Assembly (NCBI RefSeq): GCF_001049895.1
Contig: NZ_CVPE01000006.1
Span: forward strand, 468,957-532,956
Direction of reading: 5' to 3'
DNA length: 64,000 nt
Source: Rubeoparvulum massiliense
Lineage (GTDB): Bacteria > Bacillota > Bacilli > Rubeoparvulales > Rubeoparvulaceae
Shown here: piece after piece, positions 44,863 to 54,105 of the stretch
Layout of the letters: each line of letters begins with the position of its first letter
How positions within the stretch are numbered: the first letter of the stretch is position 1
Notes under the pieces: generated by a model
The model's database searches: none
Seen by the model: only the letters and a program-made list of their open reading frames with translations
Told to the model about the DNA's origin: nothing
Translations under genes and position numbers: made by a program

Positions 44863-45021
44863 TTGAGACTCCCATGTCTAAAGACGCAAGCCCTCTACCT
44901 TACGGTATCCAGGTGGGATTCTTGCATGACTAAGCGTTCGCAGTCCATTTCTGTTTTGAACAGCCTGCAAGATGAGGGCATCTCATTGCCCCTCCTAAGA
45001 CAGTGCATCTAGCATCTTAGG
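44863..45021 (-). ncRNA. Probable TnpB guide RNA (omega-RNA / reRNA)
   Basis: The 150 bases between the tnpB stop and the right end are non-coding but structured on the minus strand. CCTAAGA / TCTTAGG starts within the tnpB stop codon, followed by GGGCA / TGCCC and an ACCGTAAGGT hairpin close to the terminal TCAA. This is where TnpB omega-RNAs are encoded, with the guide beginning just past the element end. Assignment is by position and structure only. Confidence 0.5.
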
Positions 45022-46360
45022 CCGATTGACTATGACCATCAATCACAGGTGCGTATCGAATATTCATCGCACCGACTAAATCCCTATGTTTCTGGAAGCC
45101 ACATTCGCATGTATATTTCCGGTCCTGTGCCTTATTTTTAGCGGAACACTTTGGACATGTTTGACTTGTGTAGGCAGGATTCACATACTCCACTTTAATA
45201 CCCGCTAAATTCGCTTTGTATTCAATAAATTGAGACAAGCGATAGAATGACCAGTTGTGCAAATTCTTTTCGTTTTTACGGCTTGTTCTTGCCGTCTGTC
45301 GGATGTTCGCTAATTGTTCTAAGCGAATGACAGAAACCTTATTTTCTTTAGCAAAATTTATGATTGCACGGCTAACCTTGTGGTCTTGGTCTTTCATATA
45401 TCGCTGTTCTTTATCATCGAGATTGCGAATGGCGTTTAATTTCTTTAGTTTCCCTAATTTCTTGCGTTTGGATTTGAACATACGTCTGACATACTTGTTC
45501 TGTCTGCCGTTCCCAAAGAAACGTACCTTTTCATCCTCTGTTACCGCAACCGCAGGGACTTTCAAACCTAAATCTACGCCCATGGTCTTTGTTCCTGTTT
45601 TTTCACTTCTAGGAATGGTGACGGAAATTTGTGCAATCCATTTGTTTGATTTTTTTGTGATACGAAGTGTACCTAATTGGTGCTTCAACAAATCGAAAGT
45701 ACGGTTATGTTTATCAACCAACAATGCACGAACAGGCACTTTCTTTGCTTTTCCATCCATCATCAAAGGTAGAGCGATATAAGAGGAGTCCAATGAATAG
45801 TTTTGGTTATTCCATACGCAAACAGGTTTCTTGAGGATAGGAATCATCGTGTATTTACTTTTCTTCACTTTTTGAAACACGCTTTTTGCATCTTGAATCG
45901 CTTGGTTTTTCACTGCACTTGGAAGATGTGCCCGGACATCTTTTGTCGTCTTTTTCGTGCTTTTCTTTTCAGCGACCATTTCAGAAACAAGTGTGTTAAT
46001 TGTAGAGATATATTCTTTGCCCATAGCGGTTAAGATAGAGGTTTGTTCTTTTGTTGGAAGCAATTTGACTTTCACTGTGATTGTTTGTGACATACGTTTC
46101 ACCCCCTTGATTTTTGCCATAATACTAGCGGGACTAAGTGTTGGCAGTGCATTTAGAAGCAGATGTGTATGGTCTTTGTCACACTCTAAAGCAACAATGA
46201 CAACTTCTAATTCTTCACATATTTCTTGTACCAACTGTTTGAAGCGTTTCTCTACATCAGCACGAAGGAATATTTTTCTTCTATATCGAGGGCAAAAAAC
46301 GAAATGATACTTAATTAATGATATGGTTGTGTTTGTTCGTCTGTATTCGTTCATATGCAC
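45017..46360 (-). CDS. Truncated TnpA fused in frame to TnpB (RNA-guided nuclease)
   Basis: Residues 1-88 are the front of an IS200/IS605 Y1 transposase (LIKYHFVFCPRYRRKIFL; HUH motif DHTHLLLNA, His64/His66). It ends at SPASIMAKIKGV, so the last ~45 residues with the catalytic Tyr are missing. From Met90 the protein is a full-length TnpB: RuvC residues Asp263 (GVDLG), Glu348 (RLEQL) and Asp427 (KHRDLVGAMNI), and a zinc ribbon (CPKC...CEC). AAGGGGGTGA lies six bases before the Met90 codon (46093), so the 358-residue TnpB can also be made alone. TnpA should be inactive; TnpB looks intact. Confidence 0.88.
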   Translation of the reverse strand: MHMNEYRRTNTTISLIKYHFVFCPRYRRKIFLRADVEKRFKQLVQEICEELEVVIVALECDKDHTHLLLNALPTLSPASIMAKIKGVKRMSQTITVKVKLLPTKEQTSILTAMGKEYISTINTLVSEMVAEKKSTKKTTKDVRAHLPSAVKNQAIQDAKSVFQKVKKSKYTMIPILKKPVCVWNNQNYSLDSSYIALPLMMDGKAKKVPVRALLVDKHNRTFDLLKHQLGTLRITKKSNKWIAQISVTIPRSEKTGTKTMGVDLGLKVPAVAVTEDEKVRFFGNGRQNKYVRRMFKSKRKKLGKLKKLNAIRNLDDKEQRYMKDQDHKVSRAIINFAKENKVSVIRLEQLANIRQTARTSRKNEKNLHNWSFYRLSQFIEYKANLAGIKVEYVNPAYTSQTCPKCSAKNKAQDRKYTCECGFQKHRDLVGAMNIRYAPVIDGHSQSA

Positions 46361-50280: not shown

Positions 50281-50562
50281 CTATTCTTCAGTACGATTGT
50301 TCACTTGCTCTGCTTCTGCTGAATAACTTTGGCTCTCATTATCCATTGCATCGAGCTGCTGTCGTTTTTGGTCTTTTGCCTCGCGAACTCGCTCTTCTAT
50401 GGAAAACTCCTTCATCCCATCACGCATTCCCTCTTTAATCACTTCATAGAAATCATCTACGCTCTCTCGAATGGCATGCTTCACTGCTAATTTCACAATC
50501 AAATAGAGAATAAATGCATACATTGCAAGGATAAGAACACTAATTCCTGCTCCCGCTCCCAT
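50281..50562 (-). CDS. Small single-helix membrane protein with charged tail
   Basis: A 93-residue protein: one N-terminal helix (GAGAGISVLILAMYAFILYL, IVKLAVK) then a highly charged, probably coiled cytoplasmic tail (SIEERVREAKDQKRQQLDAM; AEAEQVNNRTEE). No family recognised. ATG 50562 is preferred because GGGAG lies ~10 bases upstream, while the ATG at 50583 lacks a site. It stands alone beside the PLD-helicase operon. Confidence 0.5.
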   Translation of the reverse strand: MGAGAGISVLILAMYAFILYLIVKLAVKHAIRESVDDFYEVIKEGMRDGMKEFSIEERVREAKDQKRQQLDAMDNESQSYSAEAEQVNNRTEE

Positions 50563-50636
50563 TATGTGACCGCTCCCTTCCATCTACTAACTCTATTATT
50601 CTGTACGTTTGCGTGAAGGCTGTCAAATCATAAAGA

Positions 50637-50675
50637 AAAACCAACCCTGATCTACTTCAAGATCAAAGCTGGTTC
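50637..50675 (-). terminator. Terminator overlapping the helicase stop codon
   Basis: AACCAGCTTTGATCT / AGATCAGGGTTGGTT on the minus strand, followed by TTTTC. It begins within the last codons of the PLD-helicase gene. Confidence 0.75.
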
Positions 50676-53144
50676 TTTTGATACGTCTCTATTCTTCTCG
50701 ATCTTCTCCATCTTTCTAGCAAAATAGGCATGTAGGCGATATTCACAGATCTCTTGCGTCATTCGATATAAAAAGCGCAACTCTGCTTCAATAGGATCTA
50801 CATGAAATTGAAACCTAACCCCATCATATGTTGCCCACCCTTTGGAACTTCCAGCCCACTTCGTCATGGGCATCTCTGCGAGCAATTGACTGATTGCTGT
50901 TTCCTCAAAACTGGCTTGAAATCTCAATCCCTTCTTATCAGACCAATCAAGTTTCATACGATAAGGTTTTTCAGTCATAAATTGATAGAAATCAAAAGCG
51001 ATTTCCTGTGGTGTTACTGGAAGAAACCACTCTTTCTCACCACGTTGTAGCATGAGATATAGTAGCACCATCTTATAGCTCTTCGTCATGGAGGTATGTT
51101 CAACCTCTCGGAACCATTGGGAAAAACGATCGTACGAAGTAAGCTCCTCTATACTCAGCTCTCCCATCCACGCAAGGAAGGCTACCCAAGAAGAGAATTC
51201 TTGTTTGAGCACATGACTATCCATAGCGTTCATTAGAGCAAATTCCTTATAGGAAGGCTGTCGACCTAATTCTGCTCGCAATTCTTCGTACGCATGGCGC
51301 AACTGCTCTTTTCGAGGTATCCTTTTCTTTGCCAGTTCCTCTAAGAGCTCAACAACTTGGGTCTCCAAATGGAGCTGACAGGTTGGTGGCAACGATTCTA
51401 CACCTGATTTTTCTGAACCAGTCTTCGCTTTTTCAGTTCCACCTGTTGCTCCTTGCAATGCTTGAAGCTTTAGATCTGCATAGCGATAGTTCCCTACCAA
51501 ATCAATGATCGTACAATACTCTTTGTCTGGATGTAGGCGTAAGCCTCGCCCCATTTGCTGAATAAAGAGAGGTAACGACTCGGTGGGTCGCACAAAGAGT
51601 AGAGTGTCTACCCGGGGAAGATCCGCCCCCTCATTGAGCATATCCACCGTAAATAGAAGCTCAAGGACCCCTGCATTGAGCTGCTGGATTAAACCTTGTC
51701 GCTCATCTGGGTTGGTCCCAGAATGAAGGCAGGCTGCCTTCCAGCCTTGTTGGCGAAAGAAGCGTGCCAGGTAATCTGCCTGGGGAATGGATGAACAAAA
51801 GACAAGCGTCCGTGATTGGCGATGATGTAACCAGGCTTCATAGATGGCTTGACCCACCTCTTTACGTAATTGGGCTTGCAGTAGTTGATTCGCATCATAT
51901 TTTTGCCCTAACCATCGTAGCTGTGAATAGTCAATGGGATCATAAACGCCATAGTAATGATAAGGAACTAACCATCCACGCTGGATCGCTTGAATGAAGT
52001 CTAGACGATAGGCAACATTTCCATCACAAATATTATAAACATCCCGCTGATCGGCCCGATCAGGAGTGGCAGTGATCCCCAATAAAAACTGGGGTTTGAA
52101 GTAAGCTAATATCCGTTGATATGTATTCGCAGCAGCATGGTGAAATTCGTCCACAATGATGCAGTCGAATTCATCAGGGGCAAACTGTTCCAAATGATAC
52201 TCCATTCCTAATGTATATACAGAAGCAAATAGACAGTCAACATCATGGTTCTTCTCCTTCTGATAATAAAAGCCACCTGAACGCTCAGGCATAACAGCAT
52301 GAAAGGAACGATAGGCTTGGTGGAGAATCTCCTCGCGATGAGCAATAAACAGCACTCGTTTAAATTTCCGTGCAAAAAAGGCTGCGAGATAGGTTTTACC
52401 TAGACCTGTAGCCATGACCACCATCGCCTTTGAATAACCATCTGCATAGGTTTCTTCCAGTGCCTCCAACGCTTCTTGCTGAGCTGGACGTGGCTGGATC
52501 TGATCAGGAGAAATATCTTCTGATGAATCGATCTCCATATTCGTATCATCATTTACTTGATCGAAACCATACATGAGTTGGATTGCTTCGCTTTCTACCC
52601 AAGCCTCCTGCAGCTTTGGATATTGACGATAATAGGTATCATAGGCCTCTTGATAGGCTTCCACCACACTCGGAGTAAGCGCAACCGCTTGTTCATGATA
52701 GAAGAGATGATAGAATTGCTCCCAAGCATCCTCTACTATCTGCATCTCTCGCTCCGTATCTAGTGCAAGATTCCATTCAGTTCCTGTGGTTAAGGCACTA
52801 TAAGAAAGATTAGAAGAACCAACGATAACTTGGTCTCCTCCCATGCCACGAAATAGATACGACTTGGGATGAAATGAGACCCCGTTACTATAATAGAGAT
52901 GGATCTCCATTTCTTGATGATAAGGAAGTAATTGTTCCAGTGCTTCTGGCTGTGTTACATAGAGATAGTCACCAAGCAGCCATTGAATTTTCACACCCCG
53001 CTTAAGTGCAGCTTCCAGATCTGGACGAATAAGCTGAACCCCTGATTTCATCACGAAAGAAGTAAGAAATGCAACGGAATGAGCTTGCTGAAGCGCTTGT
53101 TGGAGGGAGCGGACCAGCTGATTCGTTACAAGCTGAAGCTTCAA
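50652..53144 (-). CDS. PLD-nuclease / SF2 helicase fusion protein
   Basis: An 830-residue protein in three parts. Residues 1-150 are a phospholipase-D-fold nuclease domain (SFHPKSYLFRG, His92/Lys94; VGSSNLSYSAL). Residues ~215-560 are a superfamily-2 helicase: Walker A MATGLGKTYLA (~245-255), DEFH box (332-335), TAT (358-360) and motif VI QQMGRGLRLHPD. The C-terminal ~270 residues include YEELRAELGRQPSYKEFALM, like the small DNA-binding repeat of homing endonucleases, and a DUF3427-like region. The combination suggests ATP-driven DNA remodelling plus cleavage. It overlaps the MazG-like gene by 4 bases (ATGA). Confidence 0.85.
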   Translation of the reverse strand: MKLQLVTNQLVRSLQQALQQAHSVAFLTSFVMKSGVQLIRPDLEAALKRGVKIQWLLGDYLYVTQPEALEQLLPYHQEMEIHLYYSNGVSFHPKSYLFRGMGGDQVIVGSSNLSYSALTTGTEWNLALDTEREMQIVEDAWEQFYHLFYHEQAVALTPSVVEAYQEAYDTYYRQYPKLQEAWVESEAIQLMYGFDQVNDDTNMEIDSSEDISPDQIQPRPAQQEALEALEETYADGYSKAMVVMATGLGKTYLAAFFARKFKRVLFIAHREEILHQAYRSFHAVMPERSGGFYYQKEKNHDVDCLFASVYTLGMEYHLEQFAPDEFDCIIVDEFHHAAANTYQRILAYFKPQFLLGITATPDRADQRDVYNICDGNVAYRLDFIQAIQRGWLVPYHYYGVYDPIDYSQLRWLGQKYDANQLLQAQLRKEVGQAIYEAWLHHRQSRTLVFCSSIPQADYLARFFRQQGWKAACLHSGTNPDERQGLIQQLNAGVLELLFTVDMLNEGADLPRVDTLLFVRPTESLPLFIQQMGRGLRLHPDKEYCTIIDLVGNYRYADLKLQALQGATGGTEKAKTGSEKSGVESLPPTCQLHLETQVVELLEELAKKRIPRKEQLRHAYEELRAELGRQPSYKEFALMNAMDSHVLKQEFSSWVAFLAWMGELSIEELTSYDRFSQWFREVEHTSMTKSYKMVLLYLMLQRGEKEWFLPVTPQEIAFDFYQFMTEKPYRMKLDWSDKKGLRFQASFEETAISQLLAEMPMTKWAGSSKGWATYDGVRFQFHVDPIEAELRFLYRMTQEICEYRLHAYFARKMEKIEKNRDVSKEPALILK

Positions 53145-53464
53145 TCTTTCACCTCATGTAAAAAGATGCGCTCTTGGAATGCGCCCCGTTGCTCCGCCTT
53201 CTTCTTACGGATCTCCTCCAACTGTTCCATGTCGCAACCATGGAGAGTAACTAGTGCTCTCATCACTTCTAGAATATCAGCAAGCTCTTCCAGTGCCTCC
53301 TCATCCTTAACAGCGGTTTCATACTCCTTTACTTCTTCGAGTAACTTCTTTTTTAACTCGATGCTGTAGGTAACTTCATCAAGCGTAGAGACTCGACACT
53401 CCTTCCCTGCGGCTTCGATAATAGCTGGTATCCGATCACGAACGAGTTTTTCATAGACTGGCAC
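53141..53464 (-). CDS. MazG-like nucleotide pyrophosphohydrolase
   Basis: A 107-residue helical protein of the all-alpha NTP-pyrophosphohydrolase superfamily. Family motifs are YEKLVRDRIPAIIEAAGKEC, LLEEVKEYETAVKDEEALEE and LADILEVMRALVTLHG, with the acidic EExxE...ExxD metal pattern. It resembles the phosphoribosyl-ATP pyrophosphohydrolase-like branch. Expected reaction: (d)NTP to (d)NMP plus PPi; the preferred nucleotide is unknown. GTG 53464 follows AAGGGG. Translation is coupled to the PLD-helicase gene. Confidence 0.85.
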   Translation of the reverse strand: MPVYEKLVRDRIPAIIEAAGKECRVSTLDEVTYSIELKKKLLEEVKEYETAVKDEEALEELADILEVMRALVTLHGCDMEQLEEIRKKKAEQRGAFQERIFLHEVKD

Positions 53465-53493
53465 GAGCTGAACCCCTTCCTAGTCAATAGATG

Positions 53494-53874
53494 TTAGCCA
53501 TCATATGGGACAAGATTAGGTATGGCATTCCGAATGCCCCCACGTGGATTGGGGACATCCCCTTGATACCGGGGAATGAGATGAACATGGAGATGCATAA
53601 TGGTCTGACCGCCCCATTCTCCCACATTCACACCAATATTGTAGCCATCAGGATGGTACGTCTCATCGAGTAATTCCTTCCCTTTACGCAGGAGATCATC
53701 AATCGCCTGGATCTCCTCTGGGGTAGCATCAAAATAAGTGGGGACATGACGCTTGGGAACGATGAGTAAATGTCCGCGTTGCACAGGAAAATGATCAAAG
53801 AATGCCTTTACCCATTGATTCTCTAATACAATTTCCTGCTGATCTTTTTCACAAAATACGCAGGCCACAATCAA
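53494..53874 (-). CDS. HIT-family nucleotide hydrolase
   Basis: A 126-residue histidine-triad protein: CVFCEKDQQEIVLENQWVKA near the N-terminus, RGHLLIVPKRHVPTYF, and the triad HLHVHLIPRYQGD. It belongs to the Hit/Fhit-like branch that hydrolyses dinucleotide polyphosphates or AMP-adducts. It precedes the MazG-like gene by 30 bases in the same direction, so all three genes are probably one transcript centred on nucleotides and nucleic acids. Confidence 0.92.
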   Translation of the reverse strand: MIVACVFCEKDQQEIVLENQWVKAFFDHFPVQRGHLLIVPKRHVPTYFDATPEEIQAIDDLLRKGKELLDETYHPDGYNIGVNVGEWGGQTIMHLHVHLIPRYQGDVPNPRGGIRNAIPNLVPYDG

Positions 53875-54105
53875 CGCTCCTTCTATACAATTCTGTTAGT
53901 CTGATTATACCATAGTTTCCCTTCTTAACTTCTTACTCCTTTATCTCACCCGTCTCAGCAATCTTTGCTATTTTGTCATAATTAACTGCCCATTACCTCT
54001 TTGCTCTGTGTTACGATTTTAATTGTTCGTGTTACTAATATATAATTCAATGATTGTAAATCGCTTCCTACATCACAAGAAGGAGCCGTTTACAATGAGA
54101 CAGGA

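Follow-up and report, generated by a model that had tools for sequence, protein, structure and literature searches.

Organization of the operon

The region analysed here (the window hereafter) is a stretch of 64,000 nucleotides from Rubeoparvulum massiliense (assembly GCF_001049895.1, contig NZ_CVPE01000006.1, positions 468,957-532,956, forward strand), and its open reading frames revealed a minus-strand operon of three genes, encoding in this order a HIT-family hydrolase, a COG4997/MazG-like protein and an 830-residue protein in which a PLD nuclease is joined to an SF2 helicase (Table 1). An earlier account made from the letters alone (the sequence-only reading) had described a HIT hydrolase, a MazG-like protein and a PLD-SF2 fusion on one strand, and the open reading frames and Pfam matches bear this out at the positions of Table 1. 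In two details it needs correction: the spacing between the HIT and MazG-like genes counts 29 bases (53465-53493) rather than 30, and the overlap between the MazG-like and helicase genes reads TTGA (53144-53141) rather than ATGA, the helicase starting with TTG.

The HIT gene probably starts at GTG 53868, because the Shine-Dalgarno core GGAG is spaced 8 bases from this codon and only 2 bases from TTG 53874. One transcript for all three genes is plausible, since the operon closes with a terminator-like stem, T-rich in its tail, that overlaps the stop codon of the helicase gene; terminator-like sites as such are not enriched in the region (2 found, 2.9 expected from shuffles). At the other end, the promoter scan did not report the TATAAT box ahead of the HIT gene as a promoter, and no Rfam RNA was found in the window. 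Just downstream of the operon terminator lies a conceptual 100-residue protein with a hydrophobic N-terminal stretch (50281-50583, minus strand), which has no significant family match.

Table 1. Features of the operon and of its helicase, in window coordinates
Feature	Position	Strand	Details
HIT-family hydrolase gene	53494..53874	-	126 residues from TTG 53874; more likely 124 residues from GTG 53868
Shine-Dalgarno of the HIT gene, AGAAGGAG	53877..53884	-	sequence read directly
Candidate operon -10 box TATAAT, without clear -35 box	53904..53909	-	sequence read directly
COG4997/MazG-like all-alpha nucleoside triphosphate (NTP) pyrophosphohydrolase gene, 107 residues, GTG start (53464)	53141..53464	-	
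4-base TTGA overlap of the MazG-like TGA stop with the helicase TTG start	53141..53144	-	
PLD nuclease-SF2 helicase gene, 830 residues, TTG start	50652..53144	-	SauUSI-like without SRA domain
PLD nuclease domain, residues 15-141	52722..53102	-	PF13091; H92, K94, N112, E123
SF2 motor domain 1, residues 216-363	52056..52499	-	PF04851; Walker A ATGLGKT, DEFH
SF2 motor domain 2, residues 435-537	51534..51842	-	PF00271; QQMGRGLR, invariant arginines
HNH_repeat, residues 611-657	51174..51314	-	PF18780, E 2.5e-6; corresponds to SauUSI residues 618-669, the first helical part of its coupler
C-terminal domain, residues 660-830	50655..51167	-	almost all helical, where SauUSI has its SRA domain
Intrinsic terminator-like hairpin, 18 pairs, T-rich tail, over the helicase stop codon	50636..50677	-	terminator scan

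The PLD nuclease-SF2 helicase

Four Pfam families, PLDc_2, ResIII, Helicase_C and HNH_repeat, match the helicase above their cut-offs. Its top relative among solved structures is SauUSI (PDB 7clg, E 2e-87, over residues 10-660 of the helicase), and in PADLOC it matches the model mREase_IV (E 4e-87). In SauUSI the nuclease and the SF2 ATPase are followed by a helical coupler (residues 618-805) and an SRA domain (806-953) (PMC7913695), and the enzyme cleaves DNA with 5-methylcytosine or 5-hydroxymethylcytosine (PMC3874153). In the family of the operon helicase the catalytic apparatus is intact: 172 relatives keep H92, K94, N112, E123, K250, D332, E333, H335, R533 and R536 with a single exception, at H92.

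Two other assignments were tried and rejected. The sequence-only reading had seen a homing-endonuclease-like repeat, which proves to be a segment of the helical coupler aligned to SauUSI; homing endonuclease or HNH activity is rejected, as the protein has only a helical HNH-associated repeat and no HNH domain. A repair helicase of the RadD/XPB type is rejected on score, RadD reaching 120.6 bits against a cut-off of 720.

The kinship with SauUSI ends at the C-terminus. Residues 598-830 are predicted by AlphaFold to be almost all helical without any beta-barrel (predicted local distance difference test, pLDDT, 92), and the C-terminal domain found no significant fold match in the PDB. Moreover, DUF3427, the SRA family of target recognition, has no match in the helicase, whereas it does match a 937-residue paralogue (L082). 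By its predicted nuclease, motor and coupler the helicase is thus SauUSI-like, but by target recognition it is not a SauUSI member, because it has no DUF3427, no barrel and no fold match in this part.

Among other PLD-helicases, three (L131:9959-13270, L139:2390-6247 and L148:9362-13204) carry a LexA-type Peptidase_S24 domain between the motor and DUF3427, which suggests that SOS-type self-cleavage may control these particular proteins.

The MazG-like and HIT proteins

The MazG-like protein scores just under the Pfam cut-off of PRA-PH (PF01503, E 4e-4, 21.2 bits against 21.3). E43-E44-x-x-E47 and E59/E60 with D63, namely the EExxE and ExxD-type metal-binding motifs, are invariant, and the metal-binding motif is present in 80 of 84 homologues. 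Its AlphaFold model (pLDDT 96) resembles most closely the folds of E. coli MazG, Bacillus MazG and PRA-PH, with Foldseek probabilities of 0.85-0.91 and E values above 0.2, which are not significant. As for possible substrates, a chemical precedent is given by DCTPP1, a MazG-like enzyme that in vitro hydrolyses 5-methyl- and 5-formyl-dCTP (PMC7162842).

The HIT protein is matched far above the cut-off (PF01230, 77.7 bits against 21.5) and has the histidine triad HLHVHLIP; the HxHxH motif was present in all 21 HIT matches checked. It is 65-72% identical to most HIT proteins that stand beside helicase relatives and 32% identical to the product of the other HIT gene of the genome, and it represents a distinct lineage.

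Conservation of the module in Bacilli

A full-length orthologue of the helicase (44-54% identity) was found in about 80 of 399 genomes of the class, further genomes hold only SauUSI-like relatives of 950-1085 residues, and the MazG-like gene is present in 136. We compared 97 Bacilli loci, a few of which represent one genome twice. In 82 of them the gene directly ahead of the helicase is the MazG-like one, and in 14 a HIT gene immediately precedes the helicase or the MazG-like/helicase pair. The conserved core is therefore the MazG-like gene with the helicase, and HIT is an occasional addition. The adjacency of these two genes, which the sequence-only reading had put forward as worth searching for, is indeed conserved. 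Furthermore, the two proteins have diverged together (Mantel r 0.70 over 76 pairs, with none of 999 permutations as high), and no conserved synteny beyond the module was seen in the Bacilli neighbourhoods compared.

The ways in which the module breaks up are unequal. The helicase is fragmented in 9 of the 97 loci, and among 20 cases in which the MazG-like gene is not adjacent to a helicase, 17 are without any helicase trace and 3 have helicase remnants after the MazG-like gene (L320, L323, L324). Only 7 of the 97 loci have an intact helicase with neither MazG-like nor HIT gene, and of these seven, a methyltransferase stands in divergent orientation at three and downstream at one. Orphan MazG-like genes are thus common and intact helicases without a partner are rare, which fits a protective partner, but equally an independent house-cleaning role.

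The sole insertion into the pair is a 291-residue gene, restriction-endonuclease-like by eye (L048:10839-11714). In two genomes a helicase-free MazG-like gene (L325:842-1252, L331:639-1085) has a gene that is NUDIX-like by eye at most 50 bp upstream. In many Bacillaceae and Planococcaceae loci (L075, L081-L083, L093, L105, L108, L117, L054, L087) a SauUSI-type paralogue, which has a NUDIX gene where checked, stands in tandem with the SRA-less pair of MazG-like gene and PLD-helicase, as if the two systems travelled together.

Exchangeable partners across the superfamily

A partner, which may be a MazG-like and/or HIT protein, a NUDIX protein or a small S-adenosylmethionine (SAM) methyltransferase, stands beside or is fused to 161 of 172 sampled PLD-helicases. 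For the SauUSI-type loci in Bacilli the partner is NUDIX, whose gene was found at all 40 loci (38 directly adjacent) and at none of 20 control regions. Because the training profile for NUDIX held one wrong protein (L076:8755-9150, not a NUDIX protein), the Nudix box was checked in all 40 neighbours; a relaxed form is present in every one, and a stricter pattern matched none. One of the 40 loci encodes a true orthologue of SauUSI, which matches 7clg over its full length with 1445 bits, and here the NUDIX gene lies 2 bp upstream. Public (PGAP) annotation agrees independently, placing a "(deoxy)nucleoside triphosphate pyrophosphohydrolase" upstream in an S. aureus record and in L. plantarum, the latter with a "nucleotide pyrophosphohydrolase" downstream as well.

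Elsewhere, HIT is fused to the N-terminus of the helicase in Acidobacteriota and Verrucomicrobiota (L133, L134, L135, L137). A TehB-like SAM methyltransferase gene lies just upstream, usually overlapping, at L130, L131, L132, L141, L145 and L149-L151, and the methyltransferase is fused to the helicase in Pseudomonadota (L139, L148); a class I methyltransferase is likewise the annotated partner of a Pseudoalteromonas PLD-helicase. At L142 (8925-9917) a 330-residue fusion of NUDIX with a TehB-like methyltransferase is encoded upstream, with a 4-base overlap with the PLD-helicase gene. Right after two methyltransferase-partnered PLD-helicases there are Vsr-type endonucleases by eye (L139:6255-6689, L141:12550-14239), the one at L141 having a neighbour that resembles a cytosine methylase.

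When partner types were set as labels on a FastTree tree of 98 representative helicases, the NUDIX label changed 2 times and all six labels together 23 times, against a mean of 55 after shuffling. Partner type thus tracks the helicase clade, and within the main clade other than the NUDIX one, MazG-like, HIT and methyltransferase partners swap several times. The rule is not universal, as one DUF3427 subclade is without partner (L034, L124, L129, L140).

Defence neighbourhoods

Proteins flanking the module in Bacilli were searched with PADLOC at a cut-off of 1e-10 and compared with random proteins from module-carrying genomes. The 80 nearest flanking proteins matched 149 models and the 80 next ones 150, against 25 for 80 random proteins. 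Redundancy among models inflates these counts, but the matched families are of different kinds: Septu PtuA, Wadjet JetC/JetD, ZacA, a MspI-type nuclease and cytosine methylases were among the flank matches, and generic ATPases, UvrD-like proteins and one type IV enzyme among the random ones. In addition, the phage-defence candidate PDC-S07 matches 7 of 80 flanking proteins, and NUDIX the same number. In family f16, one genus conserves the upstream flank of the module and the other genus the downstream flank, the opposite side being replaced between species by genes for Thoeris ThsB, type I restriction-modification, BREX, DndF, GmrSD, a Schlafen-type helicase or a cytosine methylase. Such one-sided replacement is typical of a defence hotspot.

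The enrichment in defence islands that the sequence-only reading had thought of is accordingly found among relatives across Bacilli, and is absent from the window, where no other recognisable defence gene was found and the operon neighbours are an oligopeptide-type transporter, an AraC-type regulator and an acyltransferase. The same reading placed the operon beside a decayed mobile region. A remnant does exist: in the open reading frame at 45017-46360 (minus strand, 447 residues) part of an IS200-type Y1 transposase (residues 13-88) runs in frame into a TnpB-like protein carrying a Cas12f1-like TNB domain, so that an IS200/IS605 element with an internal deletion is read as a single frame. It does not adjoin the operon, and any argument from it is weak, because it lies about 4.3 kb away, past the apparently intact acyltransferase and AraC-type regulator.

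Interpretation

Taken together, we consider the operon to be a chromosomal type IV-like restriction (defence) module whose partner sanitises nucleotides, probably in order to protect the host itself, and give this reading a probability of about one half. The PLD-SF2 protein would act as an ATP-driven, DNA-translocating nuclease against DNA that is foreign or chemically aberrant. The MazG-like enzyme, joined by HIT in some genomes, would clear modified or noncanonical nucleotides from the pool of the cell, and in this way keep them out of host DNA, which would else become a substrate of the nuclease; perhaps the clearing also denies a phage its modified dNTPs. The parts of this reading are not equally firm: an immune, restriction-type role of the operon is quite probable from the sequences compared, and a role of the partner in sanitation and self-protection is nearly an even bet.

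The evidence consists of a predicted SauUSI-type nuclease and motor with intact catalytic residues and no SRA domain, the operon with the MazG-like gene, the exchange and fusion of partners, and the defence neighbourhoods of relatives. From these we infer immunity in R. massiliense itself, recognition of some DNA feature without an SRA domain, a substrate for the partner, and self-protection as the reason of the pairing. Since the nucleases nearly always travel with a nucleotide-related partner and sit in anti-phage regions, the data suggest a link between an immune nuclease and nucleotide clean-up. The sequence-only reading had left the choice between a defence and a repair module, of which defence is the better supported, and missed both the SauUSI kinship and the rule of exchangeable partners.

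Several points weigh against our reading. The helicase is without the SRA reader, which is the sole known source of modification specificity in SauUSI, so that its dependence on modification cannot be assumed; the window itself is without other defence genes. A search of plasmids and phages found no homologue that is full-length and above 40% identity; all that came up were relatives below about 42%, either SauUSI-like or matching the helicase core. At 4 of 7 related plasmid-record loci examined (the four from other phyla) no partner was detectable. The module is widespread, and some families mostly retain it (f16 in 30 of its 37 sampled genomes); orphan MazG-like genes are equally expected from an independent housekeeping role. 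The Pfam score of the MazG-like protein is marginal, and to our knowledge no substrate has been assigned to COG4997 proteins. The weakest fit is the methyltransferase, which has no obvious place in nucleotide sanitation.

Among the alternatives, a unit for DNA repair or house-cleaning, in which the helicase removes damaged DNA and the partner damaged nucleotides, with anti-phage activity absent or secondary, is unlikely but survives best. House-cleaning is the classic role of NUDIX_4/MutT-like and MazG-like enzymes, the helicase domain has a likeness to RadD (120 bits), the module is chromosomal and widely retained in some families, and the Peptidase_S24 domain inside the three helicases mentioned above suggests an SOS link. 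On the other hand, at the level of families the helicase matches type IV restriction enzymes, with the RadD score far under its cut-off, the relatives live in neighbourhoods of defence genes, and the module is patchy in its presence and decays, as the fragmented loci and the helicase remnants indicate.

The architecture and context data also fit a partner acting as effector, where upon phage detection the MazG-like, HIT or NUDIX enzyme would destroy dNTPs, or the modified dNTPs that the phage makes, alongside cleavage of phage DNA by the nuclease, and MazG is among the predicted, unvalidated nucleotide-acting defence domains in a 2026 machine-learning survey (PMC13092281). A toxic effector is not expected to be retained after loss of the helicase, as the MazG-like gene so often is (17 of the 20 orphans without helicase trace, 3 with remnants), and we hold this explanation distinctly unlikely.

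More improbable is a role of the partners in degrading a nucleotide-derived signal, or in detoxifying a nucleotide-like toxin, which controls or accompanies the nuclease. This would accommodate the SAM methyltransferase, as HIT, NUDIX, MazG-like and TehB-like proteins can all act on small molecules and NUDIX and methyltransferase are fused together in L142, but conservation in the neighbourhood is confined to the module itself and includes neither a nucleotide cyclase nor any other signal-making gene. Finally, plain co-transcription of unrelated proteins as a historical accident, to which the common orphan MazG-like genes and the limited occurrence of HIT would lend themselves, is very improbable given that the adjacency persists across varied chromosomal contexts and that partners are repeatedly replaced by enzymes of similar chemistry, besides being fused directly.

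Returning to restriction with a sanitising partner, we tentatively extend it to the whole SauUSI superfamily, whose PLD-helicases might be nuclease-sanitiser pairs rather than stand-alone enzymes, the nuclease punishing DNA with aberrant bases and an exchangeable small enzyme, be it NUDIX, COG4997, HIT or a SAM methyltransferase, keeping such bases out of host DNA.

Relation to known systems

SauUSI is a main gene-transfer barrier in Staphylococcus aureus. If the whole superfamily has a nucleotide-processing partner, this well-studied restriction system may own a second component, and modification-dependent restriction would have a new logic of self-protection, by cleaning of the nucleotide pool. 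A testable function is offered at the same time for the uncharacterised COG4997 family, the HIT fusions and the methyltransferase fusions. SauUSI is treated as a single-protein enzyme, with no mention of a NUDIX partner, in PMC7913695. In the papers that were read, we found no description of the MazG-like/HIT operon, of the SRA-less branch or of a general partner rule.

As to the single proteins, the 107-residue protein shares its metal-binding motif and predicted fold with MazG, DCTPP1 and PRA-PH, and differs from them in belonging to the COG4997 branch, which is set apart by an N-terminal KLVRDRIP motif. With RadD and XPB the helicase shares the SF2 motor, whereas its scores lie far under the cut-offs and the match contains no PLD nuclease domain. 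The helicase also matches mREase_IV in PADLOC, which has no model for the MazG-like gene or for the combination.

The nearest published case of a nucleotide-hydrolase neighbour is that of the Streptococcus homologues of SauUSI, which have adjacent MutT homologues (PMC7641849, Fig. 9 legend); unlike here, it concerns one genus, without generalisation, and covers neither SRA-less forms nor partners of the MazG-like, HIT or methyltransferase kind. SauUSI itself aligns with residues 10-660 of the helicase through the PLD nuclease, the SF2 motor and the first coupler subdomain, with the same catalytic residues, and the SauUSI-type genes of Bacilli likewise have a nucleotide hydrolase, NUDIX, as partner. 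In contrast, the operon helicase is only about 30-38% identical to SauUSI-type proteins, has a helical C-terminus in place of SRA/DUF3427, and is accompanied by MazG-like and HIT proteins instead of NUDIX. In its logic, a nuclease-sanitiser pair would be akin to toxin-antitoxin or restriction-modification systems, with an antidote whose target is the pool of nucleotides rather than DNA.

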